Below, in pieces: positions 1 to 8,036 of a DNA stretch of 64,000 bases. This DNA is from a virus, in the IMG/VR virus record IMGVR_UViG_3300031251_000002, positions 1 to 64,000 of that record. One strand, 5' to 3'. The notes under the pieces are model-generated. The model ran no database searches. It saw nothing but the letters and a program-made list of their open reading frames with translations, and had not been told where the DNA came from. A program made the position numbers and the translations under genes. Numbering within the stretch: the first letter of the stretch is position 1; the number at the start of each line of letters is the position of its first letter.

Positions 1-1
1 T

Positions 2-157
2 GTCTTCTCTCCGTGGTCAGCGTGTGATCGAGTAGCATTGAAAGACGGCAAGGTATTTTTCGTGGAATTCAAAAAGCCACAACAGGAGCTAAGCCCAATT
101 CAACAACGTGTTCATGATGCGCTCCCGGATAATTATCTAGTTCTGTATTCTGGATAG
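2..157 (+). CDS. VRR-NUC-type nuclease, C-terminal fragment
   Basis: The window opens inside this gene; only the last 51 codons are present. The fragment has D-R, G-K-V-F-F-V-E-F-K and L-S-P-I-Q followed by a short hydrophobic end. This is the pattern of the VRR-NUC (PD-D/ExK) nuclease core, in which the E-x-K of VEFK and the downstream Q contribute to the metal site. In phages such proteins act as Holliday-junction resolvase-like nucleases. The stop codon TAG at 155-157 lies inside the acceptor stem of the tRNA that begins at 152, so gene and tRNA overlap by 6 bases. The N-terminus cannot be assessed. Confidence 0.7.
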   Translation, partial: VFSPWSACDRVALKDGKVFFVEFKKPQQELSPIQQRVHDALPDNYLVLYSG

Positions 158-241
158 TTGGCCGAGTCTGGTTTATGGCACTTGTCCCGAAAACAAGCGT
201 GGGTAACACCACCGGGGGTTCAAATCCCTCACTATCCGCCA
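152..241 (+). tRNA. tRNA-Ser(CGA)
   Basis: Class II tRNA with CCA encoded. The acceptor GGATAGT/ACTATCC pairs perfectly, discriminator is G, and there is a long variable arm as expected for serine. Anticodon stem CTTGT/ACAAG encloses loop CCCGAAA, giving anticodon CGA at 188-190. Position 33, almost always U, is C here. The first six bases also encode the end of the upstream nuclease gene. Confidence 0.88.
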
Positions 242-243
242 AC

Positions 244-319
244 GCCTCTATAGCACAAATGGCGGTGCAGCGCCCCCGTAAGGCGAAGGCTGTCAGTTCA
301 AATCTGACTGGAGGCTCCA
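244..319 (+). tRNA. tRNA-Thr(CGT)
   Basis: Acceptor GCCTCTA/TGGAGGC, T-arm GTCAG/CTGAC with loop TTCAAAT, discriminator T and encoded CCA. The anticodon loop is CCCGTAA, giving CGT, with the G-A mismatch at 27-43 also seen in E. coli tRNA-Thr(CGT). Residue 33 is C instead of U, as in the preceding tRNA-Ser. Confidence 0.85.
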
Positions 320-320
320 T

Positions 321-393
321 GCCGGTGACCTTTAGGAAAGGGCAGATGATTGGTATTCATCTGGAGTGATTTCGAGTATCACCATCGGCTCCA
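321..393 (+). tRNA. tRNA-Thr(GGT), degenerate D-arm
   Basis: Acceptor GCCGGTG/CATCGGC (one G-T pair), T-arm GTGAT/ATCAC with loop TTCGAGT, discriminator T, encoded CCA. The anticodon helix is extended to 7 bp (343-349 with 357-363) around loop TTGGTAT, anticodon GGT. Only 15 bases separate the acceptor from this helix, so a normal D-arm cannot form. It may be functional but atypical, or decaying. Confidence 0.68.
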
Positions 394-395
394 TT

Positions 396-570
396 GAAAT
401 TTTTTAGCCGGAAAGACTCCCGTTAAACTCGGGTGGCCCTCAGACTTTCATTAGGGAGGGGTATAGCTCAACGGTACTACAGACTTTAATTAGGGTAGTA
501 GAGCATCCGCCAATTTGGAATAGGCAGACCGGACGGCCTTAATAAAGGACTAAATCCCCATCCGGAACCA
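396..570 (+). other. tRNA-like debris with two matching hairpins
   Basis: This gap holds fragments that look like tRNA parts but do not assemble into one clean tRNA: a D-arm-like AGCTC...GAGC at 464-504, an anticodon-arm-like hairpin at 510-526 that would read TGG (Pro) with an A-A mismatch, and a CCA at 568-570 without an identifiable 5' acceptor strand. Two hairpins share the core CAGACTTT(C/A)ATTAGGG at 441-456 and 480-495, with different but self-complementary flanks. The second sits where a D-loop would be. I could not assign an amino acid with confidence. Confidence 0.45.
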
Positions 571-573
571 AGT

Positions 574-648
574 GGGCTTGTCGTTCAATTAGGAGGATTC
601 CGCACTTGCAATGCGGGGACGACGGGGCAGAGCCGTCCGGGTCCACCA
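574..648 (+). tRNA. tRNA-Ala(TGC), unusual T-loop
   Basis: Acceptor GGGCTTG/CGGGTCC (with G-T pairs), discriminator A, encoded CCA. Anticodon stem CCGCA/TGCGG, loop CTTGCAA, anticodon TGC. T-stem GACGG/CCGTC is intact but its loop is GGCAGAG rather than the near-universal TTCRANN form, so U54, U55 and A58 are absent. The same odd loop type occurs in tRNA-Val at 3012. Confidence 0.78.
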
Positions 649-650
649 AT

Positions 651-724
651 TCCCTCATGGTTCAAAAGTAGAACAGACGCCTGATAAGCGTCAGACTTCC
701 GTGCGATTCGGAATGAGGGAACCA
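651..724 (+). tRNA. tRNA-Ile(GAT)
   Basis: Perfect acceptor TCCCTCA/TGAGGGA, discriminator A, encoded CCA. D-arm GTTC/GAAC, anticodon stem GACGC/GCGTC with loop CTGATAA (anticodon GAT), T-stem TTCCG/CGGAA with loop TGCGATT. U55 is replaced by G in the T-loop. Confidence 0.9.
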
Positions 725-727
725 CTT

Positions 728-736
728 TGTTATATT
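728..736 (+). promoter_or_regulatory. candidate extended -10 promoter
   Basis: TGTTATATT matches an extended -10 element (TGn followed by a TATAAT-like hexamer). It lies just before the structured element at 741 and tRNA-Asp, where a promoter could drive the next part of the tRNA cluster. No good -35 is visible. Confidence 0.4.
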
Positions 737-740
737 TTTC

Positions 741-808
741 GTGTCCTGACGATTGGCCGGAAGGTCGAAACGCGGGGGTGCCTCGAAACCGAGGCCCGCG
801 TAGACACG
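741..808 (+). ncRNA. tRNA-like structured element, two arms
   Basis: GTGTC at 741-745 pairs with GACAC at 804-808 and encloses two hairpins. The first (CGAT...GTCG) resembles a D-arm. The second is a long GC-rich hairpin (CGCGGG...CCCGCG with inner GCCTC/GAGGC). No anticodon arm, T-arm or CCA can be drawn. It is about 68 nt and sits between two good tRNA genes. It could be a reduced tRNA relic or a small structured RNA. Confidence 0.4.
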
Positions 809-811
809 TAC

Positions 812-886
812 GAGACTATGGTCAAGCGGAACTGACGCCTCGCTGTCTACGAGGAAGCCGGGGTTCAACTCCCCGTAGTCTCGCCA
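812..886 (+). tRNA. tRNA-Asp(GTC)
   Basis: Perfect acceptor GAGACTA/TAGTCTC, discriminator G, encoded CCA. Anticodon stem CCTCG/CGAGG, loop CTGTCTA, anticodon GTC. T-arm CGGGG/CCCCG with loop TTCAACT. Position 37 is T instead of a purine, as in tRNA-Glu(CTC) downstream. Confidence 0.92.
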
Positions 887-888
887 AT

Positions 889-966
889 AGGTACGTAGCC
901 CAATTTGGCAGAGGCCACAGGTCGAGGGCCTGTGTAGTGTGGGTTCGATGCCCGCCGTACCTACCA
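889..966 (+). tRNA. tRNA with Leu anticodon GAG, short variable loop
   Basis: Perfect acceptor AGGTACG/CGTACCT, discriminator A, encoded CCA. Anticodon stem ACAGG/CCTGT with loop TCGAGGG, anticodon GAG at 924-926, and C at position 33. T-arm GTGGG/CCCGC with loop TTCGATG. The variable region is only 5 nt (934-938), whereas bacterial leucine tRNAs carry a long variable arm, so charging with leucine is uncertain. Confidence 0.75.
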
Positions 967-977
967 TTTCAAATAAC

Positions 978-1053
978 GCCTAGGTAGGCTAACGGCAAAG
1001 CCGCTAAGCTCAGAACTTAGTGATTGGAAGTTCAAATCTTCTCCTAGGCACCA
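978..1053 (+). tRNA. tRNA with Leu anticodon CAG, short variable loop
   Basis: Perfect acceptor GCCTAGG/CCTAGGC, D-arm GGCT/AGCC, anticodon stem CTAAG/CTTAG with loop CTCAGAA (anticodon CAG), T-arm GGAAG/CTTCT with loop TTCAAAT, discriminator A, encoded CCA. The structure is clean, but the variable loop is 5 nt (TGATT), so this is a class I body carrying a leucine anticodon. Confidence 0.88.
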
Positions 1054-1059
1054 ACTTTT

Positions 1060-1133
1060 GGCCCGTTAGTCTAGTGGCAGAACGCTGGTCTCTCTAACCG
1101 GAAGCGCGAGTCCGATTCTCGCACGGGCTACCA
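1060..1133 (+). tRNA. tRNA-Glu(CTC)
   Basis: Acceptor GGCCCGT/ACGGGCT (first pair G-T), discriminator A, encoded CCA. Anticodon stem CTGGT/ACCGG, loop CTCTCTA, anticodon CTC. T-stem GCGAG/CTCGC with loop TCCGATT, in which U55 is replaced by C. Confidence 0.85.
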
Positions 1134-1142
1134 AGTCTTTAT

Positions 1143-1217
1143 GGGCTGTTCGTCTATCGGGAAGGATAGCGCCCTTTCAAGGCGTTGAGGTGGGTTCAAC
1201 TCCCACACAGCCTACCA
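1143..1217 (+). tRNA. tRNA-Glu(TTC)
   Basis: Acceptor GGGCTGT/ACAGCCT, discriminator A, encoded CCA. Anticodon stem GCGCC/GGCGT with loop CTTTCAA (anticodon TTC). T-loop TTCAACT is canonical. It sits 9 bases after tRNA-Glu(CTC), so the pair covers both glutamate codons. Confidence 0.93.
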
Positions 1218-1228
1218 ATTTTTGCGAT

Positions 1229-1304
1229 GGTGGCTATGGCCGAGCGGCTGAGGCGGCGGACTGTGAATCCGTTTAGACGAGTTCAACTCTCGTTAGTCAC
1301 CCCA
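1229..1304 (+). tRNA. tRNA-His(GTG)
   Basis: Acceptor GTGGCTA/TAGTCAC with an extra 5' G at 1229 facing a discriminator C at 1301, the hallmark G-1:C73 pair of histidine tRNAs. Anticodon stem GCGGA/TCCGT, loop CTGTGAA, anticodon GTG. T-arm ACGAG/CTCGT with loop TTCAACT. CCA encoded. Confidence 0.92.
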
Positions 1305-1325
1305 ACTTTCTAACTGGCCCGGAGT

Positions 1326-1387
1326 AGGGCGTTTCCCATGATGGGAGTCATGGGATAGCTGCTCCCACAGCGATAAGCGCCCTGCCA
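1326..1387 (+). ncRNA. 62-nt tRNA-like element ending in G-CCA
   Basis: AGGGCGT (1326-1332) pairs with GCGCCCT (1377-1383), followed by G and CCA exactly as in a tRNA acceptor. Between them lie a 7-bp hairpin CCCATGA/TCATGGG (1334-1353) and a short GCTG/CAGC hairpin (1359-1371). There is no room for separate D-, anticodon- and T-arms. An alternative internal pairing TGGGAG/CTCCCA competes. It may be a processed tRNA-like RNA or a decayed tRNA. Confidence 0.45.
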
Positions 1388-1398
1388 CCGGCATTCGG

Positions 1399-1407
1399 TG
1401 TTATAGT
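1399..1407 (+). promoter_or_regulatory. extended -10 promoter
   Basis: TGTTATAGT fits TGn plus a -10 hexamer. It lies 23 bases before the start at 1430, at the end of the first tRNA block, and would give a short leader for that gene. Confidence 0.5.
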
Positions 1408-1429
1408 GGTAACCGAAGGACATTTACCT

Positions 1430-1618
1430 ATGGAGATCAAGGTCGAACAGGGCATCATCGGGGTTGTGAAGACTGAGGCAGAGAATGCAGCGACTGAGGC
1501 GGCGTGGCGGGAATGGTATCGAGCCAACTGCCGCGACTGCGGTAGTTCGGTAGGTTTGGTTCAATACGATACGTCATACGCTCTCTGTGACCGCTGTCGA
1601 GCGAAGGCAAAGAGATAG
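1430..1618 (+). CDS. small zinc-ribbon protein
   Basis: 62 aa. Two Cys pairs (N-C-R-D-C and L-C-D-R-C) form a simple zinc ribbon in the C-terminal half, after a charged N-terminus. ATG at 1430 is preferred because of the GAAGGA ten bases upstream and the extended -10 element before it; an in-frame GTG lies at 1406. A terminator follows at once, so it appears to be transcribed alone. Function unknown. Confidence 0.7.
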   Translation: MEIKVEQGIIGVVKTEAENAATEAAWREWYRANCRDCGSSVGLVQYDTSYALCDRCRAKAKR

Positions 1619-1631
1619 GATCAAAAAAATA

Positions 1632-1657
1632 GGGGGGCTGTGAAAGCCCCCCGTTTT
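1632..1657. terminator. bidirectional intrinsic terminator
   Basis: GGGGGGCT/AGCCCCCC stem (1632-1639 with 1645-1652), followed by GTTTT on the + strand and preceded by a run of seven A at 1623-1629. On the opposite strand the hairpin would be followed by a T run. It separates the converging genes at 1430 (+) and 1660 (-). Confidence 0.85.
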
Positions 1658-1659
1658 CC

Positions 1660-1857
1660 TCAAGCGCGGATACCGCGCTCTCTTCCCAACCCGTTGCCCC
1701 GCGAGCGATGCAGCTTTACGACCCGACCTGCCGGATGATAGCGAAGGCTGTTCAACTCATGCCGCGTCTCATCGAGACGGTTGATGAGGGCGGCGATACG
1801 CCGCGCATCCTTCAGATCCATCGCCGAGTCTGCTCCGTCCACCTTGACGTTACCCAT
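1660..1857 (-). CDS. small protein on the opposite strand
   Basis: 65 aa, and the only convincing minus-strand gene in the window. The ATG at 1857 is preceded on its own strand by AAAGGAGG with 8 bases of spacing, among the best ribosome-binding sites here. The stop directly abuts the bidirectional terminator. The sequence is charged and helical (D-L-K-D-A-R-R-I-A-A-L-I-N-R-L-D-E) with an Arg-rich tail. No family recognised. A role opposite in timing to the + strand genes is possible. Confidence 0.65.
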   Translation of the reverse strand: MGNVKVDGADSAMDLKDARRIAALINRLDETRHELNSLRYHPAGRVVKLHRSRGNGLGRERGIRA

Positions 1858-1950
1858 TGGTATGGGCCTCCTTTAAGCCCATGTGCATTATCAAAAATGG
1901 AAGCGTCAATTTCTAATCGTTTGTTTGTCTGGAACTGAGAGGTTAAAACG

Positions 1951-2114
1951 ATGAAAGGCCATGCACGGATCCCCTCCCGAAGAAGACGGAGAAGGCGGTT
2001 CCGCACAAGAAGAAGGCGAAGCGGCAGAAGGCTGAGGAGCGAGATGTGGCTTTGGAACACGGTCGGTACGATGACTACCTGATCGACATGGATTCAGAGA
2101 ACAGGAACTTTTGA
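1951..2114 (+). pseudogene. frame-disrupted Lys-rich small gene
   Basis: A ribosome-binding site and ATG (1951) start a frame that soon becomes an unnatural Arg run. From about 1975 a different frame reads like real protein: a Lys-rich stretch, then A-E-E-R-D-V-A-L-E-H-G-R-Y-D-D-Y-L-I-D-M-D, with stop at 2112-2114. That frame has no start codon after its upstream stop. A one-base indel near 1970 would join start and body. Either the gene is broken or the assembly has an error. Confidence 0.4.
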
Positions 2115-2124
2115 GGAGGCTGTA

Positions 2125-2508
2125 ATGGGTGTGGAGTTCAACGGGAAGTATTGCTACGGGTCGGACAAGACGTATCTCGGGTTGGAGCTTTTGGACGAAC
2201 TGGAGTTCTCGGATCGGTCGTACTGCTTCGATACTCTCGTCGTCTGGCGCGATACCGAGGGCCGGGTTTTCGCAGCGCGGGATTCAGGTTGCTCCTGCCC
2301 GTCGCCGTTTGAGAACTACAACGACCTGTCCTCCTTCACCCGGATCTTCTCGGTAGCCGACTTGGAGGAGTTCTTCCATACCTATGACGGGAACAACTAT
2401 CCGACCGTGGAAGACAAGGCAGCGTTCAAGGCAACGGTTCAGTCCGCGCTGGACGCCCTGAAGGGGCCGGATTCGTTCAAGCCTGTGCCGATGGGTTGTC
2501 GGCAATGA
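2125..2508 (+). CDS. DUF7574-like phage protein
   Basis: 127 aa. The motif D-S-G-C-S-C-P-S-P-F-E follows a V-V-W-R-D...G-R-V-F-A-A strand pair, which I recognise from conserved actinophage and other phage hypothetical proteins (DUF7574 type). The paired cysteines suggest a metal or disulphide site. The downstream gene starts inside its stop (ATGA). No function is established for the family. Confidence 0.75.
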   Translation: MGVEFNGKYCYGSDKTYLGLELLDELEFSDRSYCFDTLVVWRDTEGRVFAARDSGCSCPSPFENYNDLSSFTRIFSVADLEEFFHTYDGNNYPTVEDKAAFKATVQSALDALKGPDSFKPVPMGCRQ

Positions 2509-2831
2509 AGTGCAAGAATTGCAACGACGAAGGCTCTCTCCATATACCGCTTGCGTTCCGCGAAATGGATGCCCCTAACAGGGGCAACTGTCCGGTCTGT
2601 TGTCGTCGCTTTCGATTACATCGCCAACCGGTGTCGTCCAGTCCTGATGGCGTCTGGCAGGTATGCTACTGGCTTGGTATCTACCAGAATCGTGCGTGTG
2701 AGTTTGGAGAACACATGGAGGTCATCTCAACCGAGATCCACGATCCGCTGGTTGATCAGATGAAGAAGGTTAAAGCAGCCGTCGCGGGACTTCACTATGG
2801 AGACCTGAGGCGGATTTTCGAGATCCCGTAA
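2505..2831 (+). CDS. zinc-ribbon protein
   Basis: 108 aa. N-terminal C-K-N-C-N and a later C-P-V-C-C form a zinc ribbon; the rest is mixed alpha/beta with a Lys-rich C-terminal helix. Start ATG overlaps the previous stop by four bases, implying coupled translation. It ends 24 bases before the second tRNA group. No family recognised. Confidence 0.75.
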   Translation: MKCKNCNDEGSLHIPLAFREMDAPNRGNCPVCCRRFRLHRQPVSSSPDGVWQVCYWLGIYQNRACEFGEHMEVISTEIHDPLVDQMKKVKAAVAGLHYGDLRRIFEIP

Positions 2832-2854
2832 ATTCCAGTGAAGTATCCGTTTTT

Positions 2855-2932
2855 TGGCAGGAAGTTGGCGGGGTGCCGACGCCTGACTGTTAATCAGGAT
2901 AAAGGCAGGTTCGACTCCTGCCCTGCCAGCCA
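2855..2932 (+). tRNA. tRNA-Asn(GTT), copy 1
   Basis: Perfect acceptor TGGCAGG/CCTGCCA, discriminator G, encoded CCA. Anticodon stem CCTGA/TCAGG, loop CTGTTAA, T-arm GCAGG/CCTGC with loop TTCGACT. The D-loop is G-rich. A second, quite different tRNA-Asn follows directly. Confidence 0.92.
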
Positions 2933-2934
2933 AT

Positions 2935-3010
2935 TCCAGTCAAGCTGAAGTGGGACAGCATCCGCCTGTTAAGCGGAGGGGTGTGGGTTCGATGCCCACG
3001 ACTGGAGCCA
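2935..3010 (+). tRNA. tRNA-Asn(GTT), copy 2
   Basis: Perfect acceptor TCCAGTC/GACTGGA, discriminator G, encoded CCA. D-arm GCTG/CAGC, anticodon stem TCCGC/GCGGA with loop CTGTTAA, T-arm GTGGG/CCCAC. Same anticodon as the neighbour but a different body, so it is unlikely to be a recent tandem duplicate. Confidence 0.92.
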
Positions 3011-3011
3011 G

Positions 3012-3085
3012 AGCCCGCGAGTAGGAAAGTAGCACTCCGTTCTTACAAATCGGAAAACACGGGGCAGTACCGTGGCGGGCTACCA
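3012..3085 (+). tRNA. tRNA-Val(TAC), degenerate
   Basis: Perfect acceptor AGCCCGC/GCGGGCT, discriminator A, encoded CCA. Anticodon loop CTTACAA (TAC) on stem CCGTT/ATCGG with a T-T mismatch at the fourth pair. T-stem CACGG/CCGTG carries the non-canonical loop GGCAGTA, and the D-arm is poor. It may be functional in a modified form or decaying. Confidence 0.7.
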
Positions 3086-3094
3086 CTTAAATCC

Positions 3095-3128
3095 GAGGCG
3101 ATTGCCTCTTTTCCGTGGCGATTGCCAC
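3095..3128 (+). repeat. twin GGCGATTGCC hairpins
   Basis: GAGGC-GATT-GCCTC (3095-3108, followed by TTTT) and GTGGC-GATT-GCCAC (3115-3128) share the palindrome GGCGATTGCC with compensating changes in the outer pairs. They lie between tRNA-Val and tRNA-Ile, and the first could act as a weak terminator or processing signal. Confidence 0.55.
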
Positions 3129-3140
3129 AGATCGGTCGCT

Positions 3141-3215
3141 TGTCCCGTAGCTCAACGGCCAGAGCGGTCTCCTTATAAGAGACGGACGAAGGTTCAACTC
3201 CTTCCGGGACAACCA
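3141..3215 (+). tRNA. tRNA-Ile(TAT)
   Basis: Perfect acceptor TGTCCCG/CGGGACA, discriminator A, encoded CCA. D-arm GCTC/GAGC, anticodon stem GTCTC/GAGAC with loop CTTATAA (anticodon TAT), T-arm GAAGG/CCTTC with loop TTCAACT. It reads the rare ATA codon directly. Confidence 0.93.
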
Positions 3216-3227
3216 GTAAGGGTAGGT

Positions 3228-3800
3228 ATGAAGAAGATTCCGAGTCTGTTTGAAAGAGACTGGAACGGCGACCGTTCCCGAGTTCTCAACAAGGTAACTC
3301 CCGGCTGCGAGTGGGTCATGGAGGGCCACGGCGTCCCGACCCGGAAGTGGGATGGCACCTGCTGCAAGGTCGAGGCTGGCCTCCTGCACAAGCGCTACGA
3401 CGCCAAGCAGGGCAAGACGCCCCCGGAGGGCTTCGTACCGGCACAGGAGCCTGATCCGATTACTGGCCACTGGCCGGGTTGGCTTCCGGTCCGGGATGTT
3501 CCAGAAGATCGCTGGTTCCGCGAGGCGTGGAACAGCCTCAAATCTGGAACACTCAAGGACGGCACCTACGAACTTGTCGGACCGAAGATCAACGGCAACC
3601 CAGAGGGCTACGACCAGCACACGCTGATCCTGCACGGCTGGCAACCGTTCTACCGGTTCCCGACCCCGCCGACCTTTGAGACGGTACGAGACTTCCTAGA
3701 GGCGAATGTAATCGAGGGCATCGTTTGGCACAATCTCGATGGTAGAATGGCCAAGGCCAAGAGGATTGACTTCGGTTTTCCGTGGGGGAGCAGGAAGTGA
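3228..3800 (+). CDS. DUF5565-type RNA ligase
   Basis: 190 aa. T-P-G-C-E-W-V-M-E-G-H-G-V-P-T-R-K-W-D-G carries the nucleotidyltransferase motif K-W-D-G, with K40 the expected AMP-accepting lysine, and E-L-V-G-P-K-I-N-G-N-P-E-G-Y later. This matches the small RNA-ligase-like DUF5565 family found in phages and bacteria. It would seal broken RNA ends through a lysine-AMP intermediate. The ATG at 3228 follows tRNA-Ile by 12 bases, so the gene sits inside the tRNA array, which suits a tRNA-repair role like that of T4 Rnl1. Substrate specificity is inferred only. Confidence 0.82.
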   Translation: MKKIPSLFERDWNGDRSRVLNKVTPGCEWVMEGHGVPTRKWDGTCCKVEAGLLHKRYDAKQGKTPPEGFVPAQEPDPITGHWPGWLPVRDVPEDRWFREAWNSLKSGTLKDGTYELVGPKINGNPEGYDQHTLILHGWQPFYRFPTPPTFETVRDFLEANVIEGIVWHNLDGRMAKAKRIDFGFPWGSRK

Positions 3801-4027
3801 AGAAGATCATCCATGTTAATCAAGCTGTGATCGTACGGAATCGCCGCCACTGCACGAACGATCCGCCGCTGATCGTGCGAACTTACAAGGGTTCGACACC
3901 GGCCCAGCAGGTTGACATCAACGGGCCGTCACGGCTGATTAACAGCCCGCACAAGCCGCTTAGCTGCGGAGCGCGGGTCTGGATAGAGACGACTGCGGAA
4001 GTAGTCGCGGACGGAAAAGTAATATGA
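3797..4027 (+). CDS. small basic beta-rich protein
   Basis: 76 aa from a GTG start that overlaps the ligase stop (GTGA), with GGGGAG six bases upstream. Predicted beta-rich, with R-N-R-R-H-C near the start and a C-terminal W-I-E-T-T-A-E-V-V-A-D-G-K. No family recognised. It is translationally coupled to the RNA ligase and to the next gene. Confidence 0.7.
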   Translation: MKKIIHVNQAVIVRNRRHCTNDPPLIVRTYKGSTPAQQVDINGPSRLINSPHKPLSCGARVWIETTAEVVADGKVI

Positions 4028-4269
4028 CCAAAGAAGAGTTGATCAAGCTGGAAGCCGTACTCGTCGCATGCGAGTTCGCGCAGGATCGTCAGGACGGGTG
4101 TCCAACTTGTGGTTACGATACGACGGAGATTTGCCCGCTTTGCTCTGCCGAAAAGGCCAGCGGAAAGAAGGGCAACCGCCATAATGACTGTGCGCTTTGG
4201 GAGAGCTTGCAAGCAGTTCGCAAGCAGCTTACCGGCGCTCACTGTTCGGAATGCAATTCATTTAGTTAG
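4024..4269 (+). CDS. Cys-rich zinc-finger protein
   Basis: 81 aa. Three Cys pairs (C-P-T-C, C-P-L-C and C-S-E-C) on a helical scaffold suggest zinc fingers. ATG overlaps the previous stop (ATGA). The TAG stop ends at 4269, which is the first base of tRNA-Arg(ACG). Function unknown; it could be an RNA- or DNA-binding partner of the ligase operon. Confidence 0.72.
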   Translation: MTKEELIKLEAVLVACEFAQDRQDGCPTCGYDTTEICPLCSAEKASGKKGNRHNDCALWESLQAVRKQLTGAHCSECNSFS

Positions 4270-4343
4270 ACCCTGTAGTTCAATGGACAGAATAAGAGCC
4301 TACGAAGCTTTTGATGCGTGTTCGACTCACGCCGGGGTCACCA
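4269..4343 (+). tRNA. tRNA-Arg(ACG)
   Basis: Acceptor GACCCTG/CGGGGTC (one T-G pair), discriminator A, encoded CCA. Anticodon stem AGAGC/GCTTT, loop CTACGAA, anticodon ACG, which normally becomes inosine at position 34. T-arm GCGTG/CACGC with loop TTCGACT. The first base is shared with the upstream stop codon. Confidence 0.9.
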
Positions 4344-4349
4344 AATTTT

Positions 4350-4691
4350 ATGGGTAAGAAAGAGGATCAAGCTCGCTGGTATGCGTCTCATCGGGTGGCG
4401 CAGAAGGCGCGTGTTAAGCGCAATCGAACGCTTCGTGAGATGGGGCGGATAAGACGTTTGTCTGACTATCTCATTGAACAAGGATGTAAGGATTGTGGCG
4501 AACGAGATCCGGTTGTTCTGGAGTTTGATCATCTGCGAGATAAGACTGATTCGGTCAGCAAGCTCTTTCAGAGTGGTTGGTCTTGGGAACGCCTCATGAC
4601 TGAAATAGCAAAATGTGAAGTTGTCTGTCGAAACTGCCACACTCGACGGACCGCAAAACGCAACGGGTGGCGAAAAGCAGCGGGTCGGTAA
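4350..4691 (+). CDS. HNH endonuclease 1
   Basis: 113 aa. C-K-D-C-G-E, V-L-E-F-D-H-L and V-C-R-N-C-H give the treble-clef HNH fold with two zinc-binding Cys pairs and the catalytic D-H...H. The N-terminus is Arg/Lys-rich and helical. Such free-standing HNH proteins in phage tRNA clusters are typically homing nucleases. It begins 7 bases after tRNA-Arg(ACG) and its last two codons plus stop (4682-4691) are the 5' acceptor strand of tRNA-Lys. Confidence 0.88.
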   Translation: MGKKEDQARWYASHRVAQKARVKRNRTLREMGRIRRLSDYLIEQGCKDCGERDPVVLEFDHLRDKTDSVSKLFQSGWSWERLMTEIAKCEVVCRNCHTRRTAKRNGWRKAAGR

Positions 4692-4758
4692 CTCAAGTGG
4701 AACAGAGTCCTCCCTCTTAAGGAGCGAGATGGCGGTTCAAATCCGCCCCGGCCCACCA
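4682..4758 (+). tRNA. tRNA-Lys(CTT)
   Basis: Acceptor GGGTCGG/CCGGCCC (one T-G pair), discriminator A, encoded CCA. D-arm ACTC/GAGT, anticodon stem CCTCC/GGAGC (outer C-C mismatch) with loop CTCTTAA (anticodon CTT), T-arm GGCGG/CCGCC with loop TTCAAAT. Its first ten bases are also the end of HNH gene 1. Confidence 0.88.
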
Positions 4759-4763
4759 TGATC

Positions 4764-4850
4764 TTGTGCGGTAATAGACAACCTACCTTCCTCCTAAGAA
4801 GGGAATCCGAGTGCAACTCTATTCGGGTTCAAATCCCGATGGACTCACCA
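4764..4850 (+). tRNA. tRNA-Arg(CCT)-like, chimeric or decayed
   Basis: A D-arm (TTGT/ACAA), a perfect anticodon arm CCTTC/GAAGG with loop CTCCTAA (CCT), a normal T-arm TCGGG/CCCGA with TTCAAAT, and TGGACTC-A-CCA are all present. A second T-arm-like loop TGCAACT (4811-4817) is squeezed into the variable region, and no 5' acceptor strand pairing with TGGACTC can be found. The intact tRNA-Arg(CCT) at 5230 also has loop TGCAACT, so this looks like a recombinant. Confidence 0.5.
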
Positions 4851-4859
4851 TGATATAAT
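4851..4859 (+). promoter_or_regulatory. extended -10 promoter before HNH gene 2
   Basis: TGATATAAT is a consensus -10 hexamer with the TGn extension, directly after a tRNA CCA and 6 bases before the ATG of HNH gene 2. Transcription would start at or inside the start codon region, so it may serve a leaderless message or the downstream tRNAs. Confidence 0.45.
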
Positions 4860-4865
4860 CGTTCG

Positions 4866-5267
4866 ATGCCCTACTTAGACCCGAAACGTCAAAGCCAACA
4901 CCAGTACGCTCGCATGAAAAAGCGACGAGACGAGTGGTTTGACAAGAACGGTCCCTGTGTTCGATGCAAGAGTTGGAAACAGCTTGAGCTTGACCACCGC
5001 GACCCGACGACCAAGGTTTCTCATGCCATCTGGTCATGGTCTGACGCCCGTAGAGCAGTTGAACTAGCAAAGTGCCAAGCTCTTTGTCATCCCTGCCATC
5101 TAACGAAGAGCATTGAAGAGTTCAAGGCCGCTAGACCGCGAAAGCACGGAGCCGCATCTTATAATAAAGGATGCCGTTGCGCGAGTTGTCGAGCCGCTAA
5201 AAATGCACAGAAAAAGAGATGGCGAGAACGACTCCATGGCCTAACAGACAAGGCAGCACTCTCCTAA
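4866..5267 (+). CDS. HNH endonuclease 2
   Basis: 133 aa. C-V-R-C...L-E-L-D-H-R-D...L-C-H-P-C-H is the HNH core, with conserved P-T-T-K-V-S-H and W-S-W segments shared with HNH gene 3. A second Cys cluster, C-R-C-A-S-C-R-A-A, follows. The last 12 codons and the stop (5230-5267) are encoded by the 5' half of tRNA-Arg(CCT); the TAA stop lies in its anticodon loop. Likely a homing-type nuclease. Confidence 0.88.
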   Translation: MPYLDPKRQSQHQYARMKKRRDEWFDKNGPCVRCKSWKQLELDHRDPTTKVSHAIWSWSDARRAVELAKCQALCHPCHLTKSIEEFKAARPRKHGAASYNKGCRCASCRAAKNAQKKRWRERLHGLTDKAALS

Positions 5268-5304
5268 AGTGTTCATGCGTGTGCAACTCACGCTGGAGTC
5301 ACCA
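5230..5304 (+). tRNA. tRNA-Arg(CCT)
   Basis: Perfect acceptor GACTCCA/TGGAGTC, discriminator A, encoded CCA. D-arm GCC/GGC, anticodon stem GCACT/AGTGT with loop CTCCTAA (CCT), T-stem GCGTG/CACGC with loop TGCAACT (U55 replaced by G). Bases 5230-5267 double as the 3' end of HNH gene 2. Confidence 0.88.
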
Positions 5305-5316
5305 TATTTAATCAAT

Positions 5317-5391
5317 GCGACTGTAGTTCAGGAGTAGAATGTCTCGTTGCCAACGAGAAGGTCGAGGGTGCGAAGCCCTCCAGTCGCTCCA
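5317..5391 (+). tRNA. tRNA-Gly(GCC)
   Basis: Perfect acceptor GCGACTG/CAGTCGC, discriminator T, encoded CCA. Anticodon stem TCTCG/CGAGA with loop TTGCCAA (GCC). T-stem GAGGG/CCCTC with loop TGCGAAG, again lacking U55. Confidence 0.92.
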
Positions 5392-5397
5392 AGTTTC

Positions 5398-5473
5398 GCG
5401 GGTGTAGTGTTCAATGGCAGCACGGGACGCTTCCAACGTTCAAGTCGGGGTTCAAATCCCCTCACCCGCTCCA
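5398..5473 (+). tRNA. tRNA-Gly(TCC)
   Basis: Perfect acceptor GCGGGTG/CACCCGC, discriminator T, encoded CCA. Anticodon stem GGACG/CGTTC, loop CTTCCAA, T-loop TTCAAAT. Six bases after tRNA-Gly(GCC). The next 58 bases (5474-5531) hold nothing I recognise. Confidence 0.92.
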
Positions 5474-5531
5474 CTTTTTCTGGTAAACTAGTGTGATCCC
5501 GTCTGCGCGAACTGTCATCGTGAACGTACAT

Positions 5532-5607
5532 TCAGGAGTGGTGTAAATGGCAACATCTCTGGCTCTGAACCAGAAGACTCTACGTTCGACCCGTAGCTCC
5601 TGAACCA
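5532..5607 (+). tRNA. tRNA-Gln(CTG)
   Basis: Perfect acceptor TCAGGAG/CTCCTGA, discriminator A, encoded CCA. Anticodon stem TCTGG/CCAGA with loop CTCTGAA (CTG), T-arm CTACG/CGTAG with loop TTCGACC. Confidence 0.92.
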
Positions 5608-5625
5608 ATTTTTTCTTGAGGGTCT

Positions 5626-5778
5626 ATGGCCAACTACAAGAAGCGTAAAGCCAAGCAGAGTTCCCGCCGATGCGGGATGTGCAAGTCCTACAAGAAGGAC
5701 GGCAACAAGGCCGAATCCAAGGCCGAGAAGCTGAACCGGAAGATTGTCAAAGCACTCAGGGAGTACCTGAAGCCGTAA
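5626..5778 (+). CDS. basic 50-aa zinc-knuckle protein
   Basis: 50 aa, Lys/Arg-rich, with a single C-G-M-C pair near residue 16 and a helical basic tail. The TTGAGGG upstream is a fair ribosome-binding site. It sits between tRNA-Gln and HNH gene 3 and ends 2 bases before it. It may be an RNA-binding accessory protein; no family recognised. Confidence 0.65.
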   Translation: MANYKKRKAKQSSRRCGMCKSYKKDGNKAESKAEKLNRKIVKALREYLKP

Positions 5779-5780
5779 CC

Positions 5781-6170
5781 ATGCATACTCCTGAAACGCG
5801 CAAACGGGCATACGCAAAAGTTCGTCAACGTCGTGAGGACTGGCTTGAAAAGAACGGGCCATGCAAGAAGTGCGGCAGCATGATCCGTCTTGAGGTCGAT
5901 CATATCAACCCAACCACAAAAGTTTCGCATACGGTTTGGTCTTGGCGAGAGCCACGGCGCTTAGCTGAGCTAAAGAAATGTCAAGTTCTCTGCCACGACT
6001 GCCATCTTGAAAAAACTCGCTTGTCGCTTGTCAAACCTTTGGTTCATGGCACTCTAACTGGTTACAAGACATGTCGCTGTTCGCTCTGCTTGGCCGCAAA
6101 CAGGGCCTATAAGCTAATCTACAATCGTACCTATCGTTCAATGAAAAGGACATGCCCCTCCGAAGGGTAA
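5781..6170 (+). CDS. HNH endonuclease 3
   Basis: 129 aa, a close paralogue of HNH gene 2: C-K-K-C...L-E-V-D-H-I-N-P-T-T-K-V-S-H, W-S-W and V-L-C-H-D-C-H, then C-R-C-S-L-C. The first residues (T-P-E-T-R-K-R-A-Y) differ. Its final 13 codons plus stop (6127-6170) are the 5' half of tRNA-Arg(CCG); the TAA falls in the 3' side of the anticodon stem. Probably a mobile homing nuclease. Confidence 0.88.
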   Translation: MHTPETRKRAYAKVRQRREDWLEKNGPCKKCGSMIRLEVDHINPTTKVSHTVWSWREPRRLAELKKCQVLCHDCHLEKTRLSLVKPLVHGTLTGYKTCRCSLCLAANRAYKLIYNRTYRSMKRTCPSEG

Positions 6171-6201
6171 AATCTCGGTTTGACTCCGAGTAGGTACACC
6201 A
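6127..6201 (+). tRNA. tRNA-Arg(CCG)
   Basis: Perfect acceptor GTACCTA/TAGGTAC, discriminator A, encoded CCA. D-arm GTTC/GGAC, anticodon stem TGCCC/GGGTA with loop CTCCGAA (CCG), T-arm CTCGG/CCGAG with loop TTTGACT. Overlaps HNH gene 3 by 44 bases. Confidence 0.9.
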
Positions 6202-6210
6202 AGCAACATT

Positions 6211-6233
6211 GCCCGCCGAAAGGCGGGCTTTTT
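6211..6233 (+). terminator. intrinsic terminator closing the tRNA region
   Basis: Perfect 7-bp stem GCCCGCC/GGCGGGC around a GAAA tetraloop, followed by TTTTT. It lies 9 bases after the CCA of the last tRNA. Confidence 0.95.
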
Positions 6234-6250
6234 CATGTTAGGATTACCTG

Positions 6251-6532
6251 ATGAACGAATTGACTGAACTGGCGAAGATGGGCGCGGTCAAGGAGAAGTC
6301 TCAAGCAATCGGTGAGTTCATCGAGTGGTTACGGGACACAAAGAGCGTCGTCTTTGCCGAGTGGGTAGATGAAATCTGCGAGTCGAACTGTCGTCACAAG
6401 CATGAGGCGCGGCTGGTGTCAGCGTACGTCGATATCGAAAGCTGGCTGGCTCAATTTTTTGACATTGATCTGGATAAGGTCGAGAAAGAAAAGCGAGCGA
6501 TCCTGAAGGCCCTGCGGGAGAAGACAAAATGA
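6251..6532 (+). CDS. conserved small helical phage protein
   Basis: 93 aa. Begins M-N-E-L-T-E-L-A-K-M-G-A-V-K-E-K-S-Q-A-I-G-E-F-I-E-W-L, a pattern I have seen in small conserved phage proteins of unknown function. All-helical, acidic in the middle, Lys-rich at the end. First gene after the tRNA terminator. The next gene starts in its stop codon (ATGA), making an operon with the alarmone hydrolase. Confidence 0.75.
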   Translation: MNELTELAKMGAVKEKSQAIGEFIEWLRDTKSVVFAEWVDEICESNCRHKHEARLVSAYVDIESWLAQFFDIDLDKVEKEKRAILKALREKTK

Positions 6533-7074
6533 ACGGCATTGAACTGGATCCCCGCTACATCCGAGCGTATCGCTTCGCTCTGAAGGCTCACGAAGGACAG
6601 GTACGCAAGTACACGACAGACCAGCCGATTCCGTACGTGACCCACCCCGTCGCGGTAGCCCGGATGGTTGATCGGGTTCCGGGCCGCTCGGACGCCATGG
6701 TTCAGGCGGCGCTCCTCCACGATGTTGTCGAGGACACGCCGGTGACCTTGCAGACCATCCATGACGAGTTCGGGCATGACGTAGGGGACTTGGTTCACTG
6801 GCTGACCAACCCGCCGAAGGTCAAGGGCGAGAACCGGGTAGCGAAGAAGGCCAGCGATGTCCTGCGCTTGTCCAAGGCTCCATGGTCGGTCCAGACCATC
6901 AAGCTCGCGGACCGGTTGCACAACCTGCCATCGACCATCGAGTTCGATCCACCGTTCGCTGCGGTCTATGTCGGAGAGACGAAACTGTTACTCACGGCTC
7001 TGTCGGAGGGTGATCCTACCCTCTGGCATCAACTCCACGAAGTAGTTCAACGGTACAGGGAGGCCAAGAGATGA
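6529..7074 (+). CDS. MESH1/SpoT-like (p)ppGpp hydrolase
   Basis: 181 aa. HD-domain motifs in order: Y-V-T-H-P-V-A-V-A (H39), A-L-L-H-D-V-V-E-D-T (H64, D65, E68, D69) and T-I-K-L-A-D-R-L-H-N-L (D128). These match the hydrolase domain of SpoT and stand-alone MESH1 enzymes, which remove the 3' diphosphate of (p)ppGpp in a Mn-dependent reaction. There is no synthetase or regulatory domain. In a phage it could damp the stringent response or reverse alarmone-type toxins. Alternative nucleotide substrates cannot be excluded. Confidence 0.85.
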   Translation: MNGIELDPRYIRAYRFALKAHEGQVRKYTTDQPIPYVTHPVAVARMVDRVPGRSDAMVQAALLHDVVEDTPVTLQTIHDEFGHDVGDLVHWLTNPPKVKGENRVAKKASDVLRLSKAPWSVQTIKLADRLHNLPSTIEFDPPFAAVYVGETKLLLTALSEGDPTLWHQLHEVVQRYREAKR

Positions 7075-7370
7075 TGCCTGAAGACCACTGGCACTCTGCT
7101 AACTGCCCGCGCTGCGATCTGGACTTTGCGTGTGTCGTGGAATGCACCCCGGATACGCTTGCTTGCGGGCGTTGTGGCAGAGGGCGGCAAGGGGTTTGTG
7201 ACTGTACGGAATACTGGCTCGATGAGAATGCGCCTTTTCCTGCACGTTGGTTAGTCAATCACCGATGTTCGGATGGCAAGGTCAGACGCCACCGTGAACT
7301 TGGTAAATGCCAGCCCGGTGCCGTCGATCCGTTCGACTACACCCTTTCCTTCAAGGATGACAGAGAATGA
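7071..7370 (+). CDS. Cys-rich double zinc-ribbon protein
   Basis: 99 aa. C-P-R-C near the start, C-G-R-C-G-R-G and a C-D-C follow, then later single cysteines, suggesting two zinc ribbons. ATG overlaps the stop of the alarmone hydrolase gene by four bases. Function unknown. Confidence 0.75.
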   Translation: MMPEDHWHSANCPRCDLDFACVVECTPDTLACGRCGRGRQGVCDCTEYWLDENAPFPARWLVNHRCSDGKVRRHRELGKCQPGAVDPFDYTLSFKDDRE

Positions 7371-7606
7371 ACCGTAGAGGCTTTCTGGGACTTCTCCCCG
7401 CAATTCCCGCCGCAATGGCTCTCAAGCCCGCAGAACGCAAAATTTGCCCTATCTGCGAGGGCCGGGGCTGGTCTCCCGGACCGGACAACCGTCCTTCCTC
7501 GCCATCTGGCCTTGATGTCTACCTCCCGACTATCTACATCCGGACGGATCTCTTCGCCATGACCTGTCTCCCCTGCAAGGGAACAGGCTTGACTCAAGAA
7601 TCCTGA
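7367..7606 (+). CDS. Tat-like leader plus CxxCxGxG protein
   Basis: 79 aa. The N-terminus N-R-R-G-F-L-G-L-L followed by a short Ala/Pro/Leu stretch has the layout of a twin-arginine (Tat) signal. The body carries C-P-I-C-E-G-R-G and C-L-P-C-K-G-T-G, DnaJ-type zinc motifs. If exported, it would be a small folded zinc protein in the periplasm. The hydrophobic part is short, so export is not certain. ATG overlaps the previous stop. Confidence 0.7.
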   Translation: MNRRGFLGLLPAIPAAMALKPAERKICPICEGRGWSPGPDNRPSSPSGLDVYLPTIYIRTDLFAMTCLPCKGTGLTQES

Positions 7607-7793
7607 CCCCTTACCTTCCTGATACCGCTAGGGGATAGTTCCATGGGGCGGTCAAGCTGGGGTAACCTGAGCAAAGTGAAAGGTAACCATGGAGACTCGT
7701 CAGACTGAGATGATGAGCTATCTAACCTTCACAGAAATGTGGGGTAGGGGTAGCTCATCTCCTGAGATAAGAATCCGTGGGGAAAAGCAAAGT

Positions 7794-7804
7794 TGTGGTA
7801 ACAT
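7794..7804 (+). promoter_or_regulatory. TGTGGTAACAT extended -10 promoter, copy 1
   Basis: This 11-mer recurs at 11664, 34204 and 43457, each time just before a gene, and reads as TGTG-N-TAACAT (extended -10). Here it is 23 bases before the ATG at 7827. The gap 7607-7826 otherwise holds only a weak CCCCT/AGGGG hairpin and an in-frame upstream extension (ATG 7689) that I consider leader. Confidence 0.6.
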
Positions 7805-7826
7805 GCTCGGATCGAAAGGAAAAACC

Positions 7827-8036
7827 ATGAAGAACGGAACAGCATTCACAAAACCCGGTGAGGGAGTAACATTGGCCGCTCTGGCTGATGAACTGGAAGC
7901 AAACGGCATCCCTGACCCGTGGGGGCTTCCTGATGATGGACGGGCAAGCAAGGTTGGTGCTGAGCGTACGGCTCTGATCCTCTTGGGATCTCCACTGACC
8001 GAAGAGGACATTCGGCGCATCATGGAGTACGCATGA
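7827..8036 (+). CDS. small acidic helical protein
   Basis: 69 aa. Contains G-V-T-L-A-A-L-A-D-E-L-E-A-N-G-I-P-D-P-W-G and a C-terminal L-T-E-E-D-I-R-R-I-M-E-Y, all helical. ATG 7827 is chosen because it lies after the promoter-like element and has AAAGGAAA upstream; the frame is open back to 7689. No family recognised. Confidence 0.68.
   Translation: MKNGTAFTKPGEGVTLAALADELEANGIPDPWGLPDDGRASKVGAERTALILLGSPLTEEDIRRIMEYA

Follow-up and report, generated by a model that had tools for sequence, protein, structure and literature searches.

A phage HNH endonuclease gene and the tRNA gene behind it probably form one mobile cassette, in which a free-standing homing nuclease is combined with a substitute tRNA of the same specificity. 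Relatives show where the element has inserted, the halves into which the old tRNA was broken, and a substitute that shares its specificity and diverges from it in sequence. The three HNH genes of the DNA analysed here would have moved in the same way; the mechanism proposed for them rests on other members of the family.

HNH genes ending inside tRNA genes

The window comprises the first 64,000 nucleotides of IMGVR_UViG_3300031251_000002, a virus contig of 166,450 bases in which terminase-like and portal-like genes are present. Three HNH genes of this window each end within the tRNA gene that follows (table 1). Both the overlaps, of 10, 38 and 44 nt, and the use of tRNA bases for the TAA stop codons had been put forward in the original prediction, and both are read directly from the sequence and the ARAGORN calls. 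The stop of HNH1 occupies positions 8–10 of tRNA-Lys(CTT), that of HNH2 positions 36–38 of tRNA-Arg(CCT), in the anticodon loop, and that of HNH3 positions 42–44 of tRNA-Arg(CCG), i.e. the final two bases of the anticodon stem plus the base that follows. All three tRNAs exceed the Rfam cut-off, and their predicted folds show the expected stems.

Table 1. HNH genes and tRNA genes in the overlapping region of the window.
Feature	Position	Strand	Evidence
HNH1 endonuclease gene (phrog_2255-like)	4350..4691	+	ORF; phrog_2255 E 1.2e-23; TAA 4689-4691
tRNA-Lys(CTT)	4682..4758	+	ARAGORN; Rfam 46.3 bits; fold; first 10 nt common with HNH1
Degenerate tRNA, anticodon CCT (candidate broken resident tRNA)	4760..4850	+	Rfam tRNA 27.5 bits (cut-off 29)
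HNH2 endonuclease gene (phrog_4234)	4866..5267	+	phrog_4234 E 2.7e-33, residues 1-123 of 133; TAA 5265-5267
tRNA-Arg(CCT)	5230..5304	+	ARAGORN; Rfam 53.8 bits; fold z -3.08; first 38 nt common with HNH2
HNH3 endonuclease gene (phrog_4234)	5781..6170	+	phrog_4234 E 4.2e-32, residues 7-119 of 129; TAA 6168-6170
tRNA-Arg(CCG)	6127..6201	+	ARAGORN; Rfam 50.5 bits; fold z -2.67; first 44 nt common with HNH3

The three ORFs are free-standing between tRNA genes and do not lie within an intron or intein, no intron family having been detected in positions 1–8000. They match HNH nuclease families in PHROGs; against Pfam alone, the matches are below the Pfam cut-offs. The Pfam and PHROG profile searches gave HNH matches only, with none to GIY-YIG or LAGLIDADG, and phrog_59, the family of T5 hegC and hegD, is not among the matches.

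The degenerate tRNA ahead of HNH2 has the anticodon of the tRNA-Arg(CCT) behind this gene and retains its 3′ end with CCA. It was missed by ARAGORN (fold z −1.15; 5′-half scan, p 0.013). This candidate remnant is better described as a degenerate paralogue than as a clean tRNA half. The scan for upstream tRNA halves revealed no broken tRNA in front of HNH1 or HNH3.

Overlap with tRNA genes among relatives

Relatives were taken from IMG/VR, GTDB genomes and annotated phages, and constitute a pattern-based rather than a random sample (including the best 80 of 173). Exclusion of 25 locus identifiers as copies (copies of the window and repeated contigs) left 128 loci, 127 of them with a stop; L114 and L139, the two loci of one contig, were both removed by the exclusion list. 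A tRNA was considered to be at the HNH stop if it started between −90 and +40 nt of this stop. There are 37 non-redundant loci among the 127 with such a tRNA on the same strand and four with one on the opposite strand, and for 90 of the 127 relatives ARAGORN gives no tRNA at the stop. The association of HNH stops with tRNAs therefore exceeds chance (37 sense versus 4 antisense). The tRNA overlaps the HNH gene in 23 of the 127 loci, in 18 of these by at least 11 nt, and 16 anticodon types are represented. The HNH gene stops at tRNA positions 8–10 in five loci and at positions 13–15 in six.

A strict scanner for full tRNAs was abandoned, as it missed 161 of 631 real tRNAs. Six tRNAs missed by ARAGORN were called manually (L015 Ser, L054 Thr, L059 Met, L067 Glu, L074 Lys and L100 Pro); those of L067 and L100 pass the Rfam cut-off, and the others were called by reading and folding, or for L074 by reading only.

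In annotated records, from which the gaps were transcribed by hand, the next tRNA is overlapped by at least 11 nt in 8 of 11 nuclease genes versus 2 of 23 other genes (Fisher p 3e-4), with one of the two in the latter group carrying a T5orf172 domain. An unannotated HNH gene of phage Myrna ends 39 nt into tRNA-Arg(CCT), in the anticodon loop, nearly as HNH2 does. The T5 genes hegC, hegD and T5.069 (a T5orf172-domain gene) end 14, 23 and 24 nt inside tRNAs, namely tRNA-Ser(GGA) for hegC and tRNA-Gln(CUG) for hegD. The overlaps had been regarded as unusual for free-standing homing nucleases; they are not odd for this nuclease family, in which they are common, and they are present in T5.

Pairs of genomes with and without the element

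Presence and absence of the element at a defined site were seen for family members, in the pair of loci L100 and L192 and in Bixzunavirus; the HNH proteins concerned belong to phrog_4234, like HNH2 and HNH3. The flanks of L100 and L192 agree at 98.8% over 82 nt upstream and at 88% over 307 nt downstream. L192 carries an intact tRNA-Pro(TGG). In L100, the 7-nt anticodon loop of this tRNA, TTTGGGA, is replaced by a cassette of about 500 nt, composed of a divergent second tRNA-Pro(TGG) (Rfam 37.5 bits) and the HNH gene; the old tRNA-Pro survives as two halves. The tRNA precedes the HNH gene here, which means that a cassette does not require the overlap.

In Bixzunavirus IkeLoa, the 5′ half of the resident tRNA-Gly(GCC) is followed by an HNH gene and then by a different tRNA-Gly(GCC), which the HNH ORF enters by 45 nt. 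The same arrangement is found at tRNA-Thr(GGT) in Bixzunavirus YemiJoy, with another HNH gene. Only the 5′ half of the old tRNA is retained at these two mycobacteriophage sites. A third HNH gene is located 5 nt ahead of tRNA-Thr(GGT) in HyRo, and IkeLoa and YemiJoy retain only its last codons. At a query coverage of at least 80%, 20 records contain the HNH + tRNA unit of the Gly site and 170 contain the HNH-less allele, counts that include some GenBank/RefSeq doubles. A substitute for the interrupted gene part is carried at L100/L192 and at the Bixzunavirus Gly and Thr sites, that is, in family members rather than in the window.

Among T5-like phages, 26 records contain hegC: the T5-type tRNA-Ser2 is complete in 24 of them and represented by its first 39 nt in the other two (DaisyDussoix). 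Among the 45 records that match the T5-type tRNA-Ser2, hegC is missing from 19. The tRNA-Ser(GGA) of DaisyDussoix is a hybrid, the first 39 nt being of the hegC type and the remainder identical over 59 nt to that of the hegC-less phage vaffelhjerte. Between T5 and ev219, tRNA-Leu1, Ala and Gln1 differ (64, 62 and 61%), and Ser1, Gly1 and His are 98.7–100% identical. Since the differences extend to the neighbours Leu1, Ala and Gln1, the tract exchanged comprises more than a single tRNA.

Relatives with the tRNA and without the HNH gene, which the original prediction had proposed for comparison, were found for family members (L192 and Bixzunavirus) and for the T5-likes; for the window phage itself, none was found among the viral contigs searched. 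The RNA-ligase-like gene of this phage has 30 homologous loci, 27 of them without any tRNA, and no homologue of the downstream gene at 6529 was confirmed in viral contigs, which is why an HNH-less relative was not obtained.

Same specificity, different sequence

When the anticodon of a broken or degenerate tRNA ahead of an HNH gene is readable, it is identical to that of the intact tRNA behind the gene in seven of eight cases, these upstream tRNAs having been found partly by eye. The seven are Asp(GTC) in L071, Asn(GTT) in L053, Pro(TGG) in L161, Met(CAT) in L133, Glu(TTC) in L067, Ser(GCT) in L015 and Arg(CCT) at HNH2 of the window. In the eighth, L064, there is a Val(TAC) fragment ahead and no tRNA behind. 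The automatic scan for upstream tRNA halves was positive (p<0.05) in 6 of 36 near-tRNA loci versus 8 of 92 others; most loci therefore show no remnant.

The resident and substitute tRNAs are 73.7 per cent (Gly), 61.2 per cent (Thr) and 57.7 per cent (Pro) identical, as compared with 91.8–100 per cent for four further tRNA comparisons made at the two sites in mycobacteriophages. On the HNH tree (L131 relabelled Asp; L179 and HNH1 uncounted), the amino acids of the tRNAs are clustered, with 27 changes versus a shuffled mean of 32.06 and none of 500 shuffles as low; the amino acid still switches often. An altered T loop as self-protection of the substitutes was unsupported (27/34 versus 510/597, p 0.32).

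Proposed mechanism and alternative explanations

According to the cassette model, the nuclease would cut a resident tRNA gene near the anticodon arm, both the cutting and the choice of target being presumed. Repair from a cassette-bearing genome would then copy in the nuclease gene together with its own diverged tRNA. The old tRNA would be left in pieces or lost, and the substitute would keep the function while being, presumably, too different in sequence to be cut, which would confer self-immunity. The overlaps would arise because the cassette nuclease abuts its tRNA without a spacer, so that the frame continues into the tRNA as far as a stop formed by conserved tRNA bases, often U8-A9-R10 or positions 13–15. 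The wider proposition seems to us evenly balanced, namely that HNH genes of the phrog_4234 type with their abutting tRNAs are widespread home-and-rescue mobile elements, which insert into the anticodon arm of tRNA genes and deliver a diverged tRNA of the same specificity; the turnover of phage tRNA arrays would thus be driven by selfish nucleases, which would also select for tRNA genes that resist cutting.

Alternatively, these might be ordinary free-standing HNH genes in the spacers 5′ of tRNAs. A lost stop codon would be repaired at no cost by conserved tRNA bases, the overlap would be neutral, and changes in the tRNAs would reflect general phage recombination independent of the nuclease. 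Such a view accommodates the fact that non-nuclease genes also have 10-nt overlaps at this position (gene 106 of Bricole ends at T8-A9-R10), the many HNH loci without a broken tRNA, and the wide variation of tRNAs in T5-like phages even away from hegC and hegD. We nevertheless consider it unlikely, given that the pairs with and without the element display an insertion that interrupts a tRNA gene, the cassette bringing along a substitute with the same anticodon, that the anticodons match in nearly all of the readable cases listed above and that deep overlap is more frequent in nuclease genes than in others.

The original prediction held that homing carries the 5′ half of the tRNA. If this half alone travelled, the cut would be made at the anticodon, and the 3′ coding end of the nuclease would supply a new 5′ half, to be joined to the resident 3′ half. 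The hybrid tRNA-Ser of DaisyDussoix has this composition, and it upholds the part of the claim according to which tRNA sequence travels. However, the whole substitute tRNA travels in L100/L192 and at the mycobacteriophage Gly and Thr sites, and the 3′ half is also new in IkeLoa, YemiJoy and L100, because pairing with the new 5′ strand of the acceptor stem requires it; transfer of the 5′ half alone is thus quite improbable. An unrecognized intron or integrase-type element in the tRNA genes is hardly to be expected at all. The anticodon loop is a classic site of group I introns in bacterial tRNAs, and the C-terminal segment of some HNH proteins matches a 75-residue PHROG named integrase, but the cassette contains a complete second tRNA, and the L100 cassette fits no integrase-length gene besides the HNH gene. 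No intron family was detected in positions 1–8000 of the window (E up to 5) or in L100, and the group I core was not found.

The reason for the large and diverse tRNA arrays of phages is a long-standing question, and codon usage or the replacement of host-degraded tRNAs are the usual explanations for them. If tRNA genes are broken by nucleases that supply substitutes, some of this tRNA diversity would be the footprint of selfish elements, and the cassette would be a naturally occurring counterpart of engineered cleave-and-rescue gene drives. The tRNA-Gly and tRNA-Thr of Bixzunavirus, the tRNA-Ser of T5 and L100/L192 are sites that make the cassette idea directly testable in laboratory phages.

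Comparison with known systems

The T5 genes hegC (F-TflI) and hegD (F-TflII) resemble HNH1–3 as free-standing HNH genes of a phage tRNA cluster that end inside tRNAs, and their tRNAs differ from those of T5-like phages without hegC and hegD. Unlike HNH1–3, they belong to the phrog_59 subfamily (HNH_3, with NUMOD4 in hegD), and unlike in the cassette, more than a single tRNA is exchanged. SegB of T-even phages is also a homing nuclease encoded in a tRNA cluster, in T4 5 nt 5′ of tRNA-Arg. It cuts inside tRNA genes according to SITE-seq, with the motif RAWTSGAAC (PMC13096335), the reverse complement of which is, by our own reading, close to the tRNA T loop. Cleavage within tRNA genes by a phage homing nuclease therefore has a precedent in SegB. 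It differs from HNH1–3 in being a GIY-YIG nuclease, and what the accessible part of that report describes is tRNA amplification, not a substitute tRNA. In fungal mitochondria, the mORFs of Allomyces atp6 and of Glomus atp6, atp9, cox2 and nad3 are alike in that a nuclease carries a foreign replacement for a portion of the gene into which it has moved, the native portion being left behind; in contrast to the HNH cassette, these are LAGLIDADG or GIY-YIG nucleases in protein genes, and a 3′ exon is carried rather than a whole tRNA (PMC3630166, as far as accessible).

In mycobacterial tRNA arrays, no protein genes are more widespread than HNH genes, which have been proposed to diversify tRNA repertoires (PMC5966550 and PMC6409571, citing Pope et al. 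2014); in the accessible parts of these accounts, no description of an insertion site, a broken tRNA or a substitute tRNA was found. The literature thus already covers the occurrence of HNH genes in the tRNA arrays of phages, the part they may play in tRNA diversity, and mORFs with a replacement gene part. A nuclease combined with a substitute tRNA of the same specificity was not found described in the accessible open-access literature, and Pope et al. 2014 and Brok-Volchanskaya et al. 2008 may say more.

Nature of the tRNA-coded protein tail

The overlaps had also been read as dual coding. The match to phrog_4234 ends at most four residues from the 5′ end of the tRNA in 11 of 15 proteins (HNH2, HNH3, L013, L022, L161, L056, L075, L108, L131, L140 and L149). 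As the conserved protein stops at the tRNA, the tail is mostly tRNA read as protein up to the first in-frame stop; it appears mostly incidental, and deep functional dual coding was rejected on the basis of these 11 cases. Among the exceptions, the conserved part is 23 and 30 residues longer in L107 and L126, respectively, and L063 and L071 have another C-terminal part. The AF2 model of HNH2 has a mean pLDDT of 89, and in the structure model a helix runs into the tail, at lower confidence.

HNH genes and the tRNA genes that adjoin them

The window contains two further genes: an additional tRNA overlooked by ARAGORN and, within the tRNA array, a gene resembling mycobacteriophage proteins that are annotated as RNA ligase.

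Coordinates of additional genes, tRNAs with non-canonical T loops and unusual overlaps
Sequence	Positions	Feature
Window	574-645	additional tRNA (Rfam, 35 bits)
Window	3222-3800	RNA ligase-like gene within the tRNA array
Window	5230-5304	tRNA-Arg(CCT), non-canonical T loop
Window	6127-6201	tRNA-Arg(CCG), non-canonical T loop
Bigswole (L014)	2501-2908	HNH frame/tRNA-Leu(caa), 42 nt overlap
TrudiRoth (L200)	1249-1764	annotated homing endonuclease/tRNA-Ser (codon TCA), 5 nt overlap

Non-canonical T loops (TGCAACT, TTTGACT, GGCGGTA, GGCGGCA and GGCAGTA) are found in several HNH-adjacent tRNAs, namely the two tRNA-Arg of the window and the substitute tRNAs of the proposed mobile cassettes L054, L059 and L100. 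Such loops are not enriched beside HNH genes among the tRNAs called by ARAGORN, a program that misses tRNAs carrying them.

Some overlaps are unusual. At L062 and L122, the HNH frame reads through a whole tRNA gene (tRNA-Gln and tRNA-Met, respectively) before its stop. The tRNA-Leu(caa) of Bigswole lies on the opposite strand to the HNH frame, which differs from the usual arrangement. The overlapping pair of TrudiRoth adjoins a T5-type tRNA-Ser2 that is not accompanied by hegC, a free-standing HNH gene of T5.

The C-terminal HNH segment matches PHROG 24671, a family of 75 residues named integrase, at L100 (E = 3e-8), L126 (2.5e-9) and L161 (5e-4); it is perhaps a shared DNA-binding segment.

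Two HNH-tRNA units, L133 and L071, stand back to back on one contig, and in front of each lies a tRNA, degenerate or broken, with the matching anticodon (Met for L133, followed by Asp for L071). At L099, a tRNA-Cys-like sequence 3' of the HNH stop seems, as read by eye, to carry an internal insertion.
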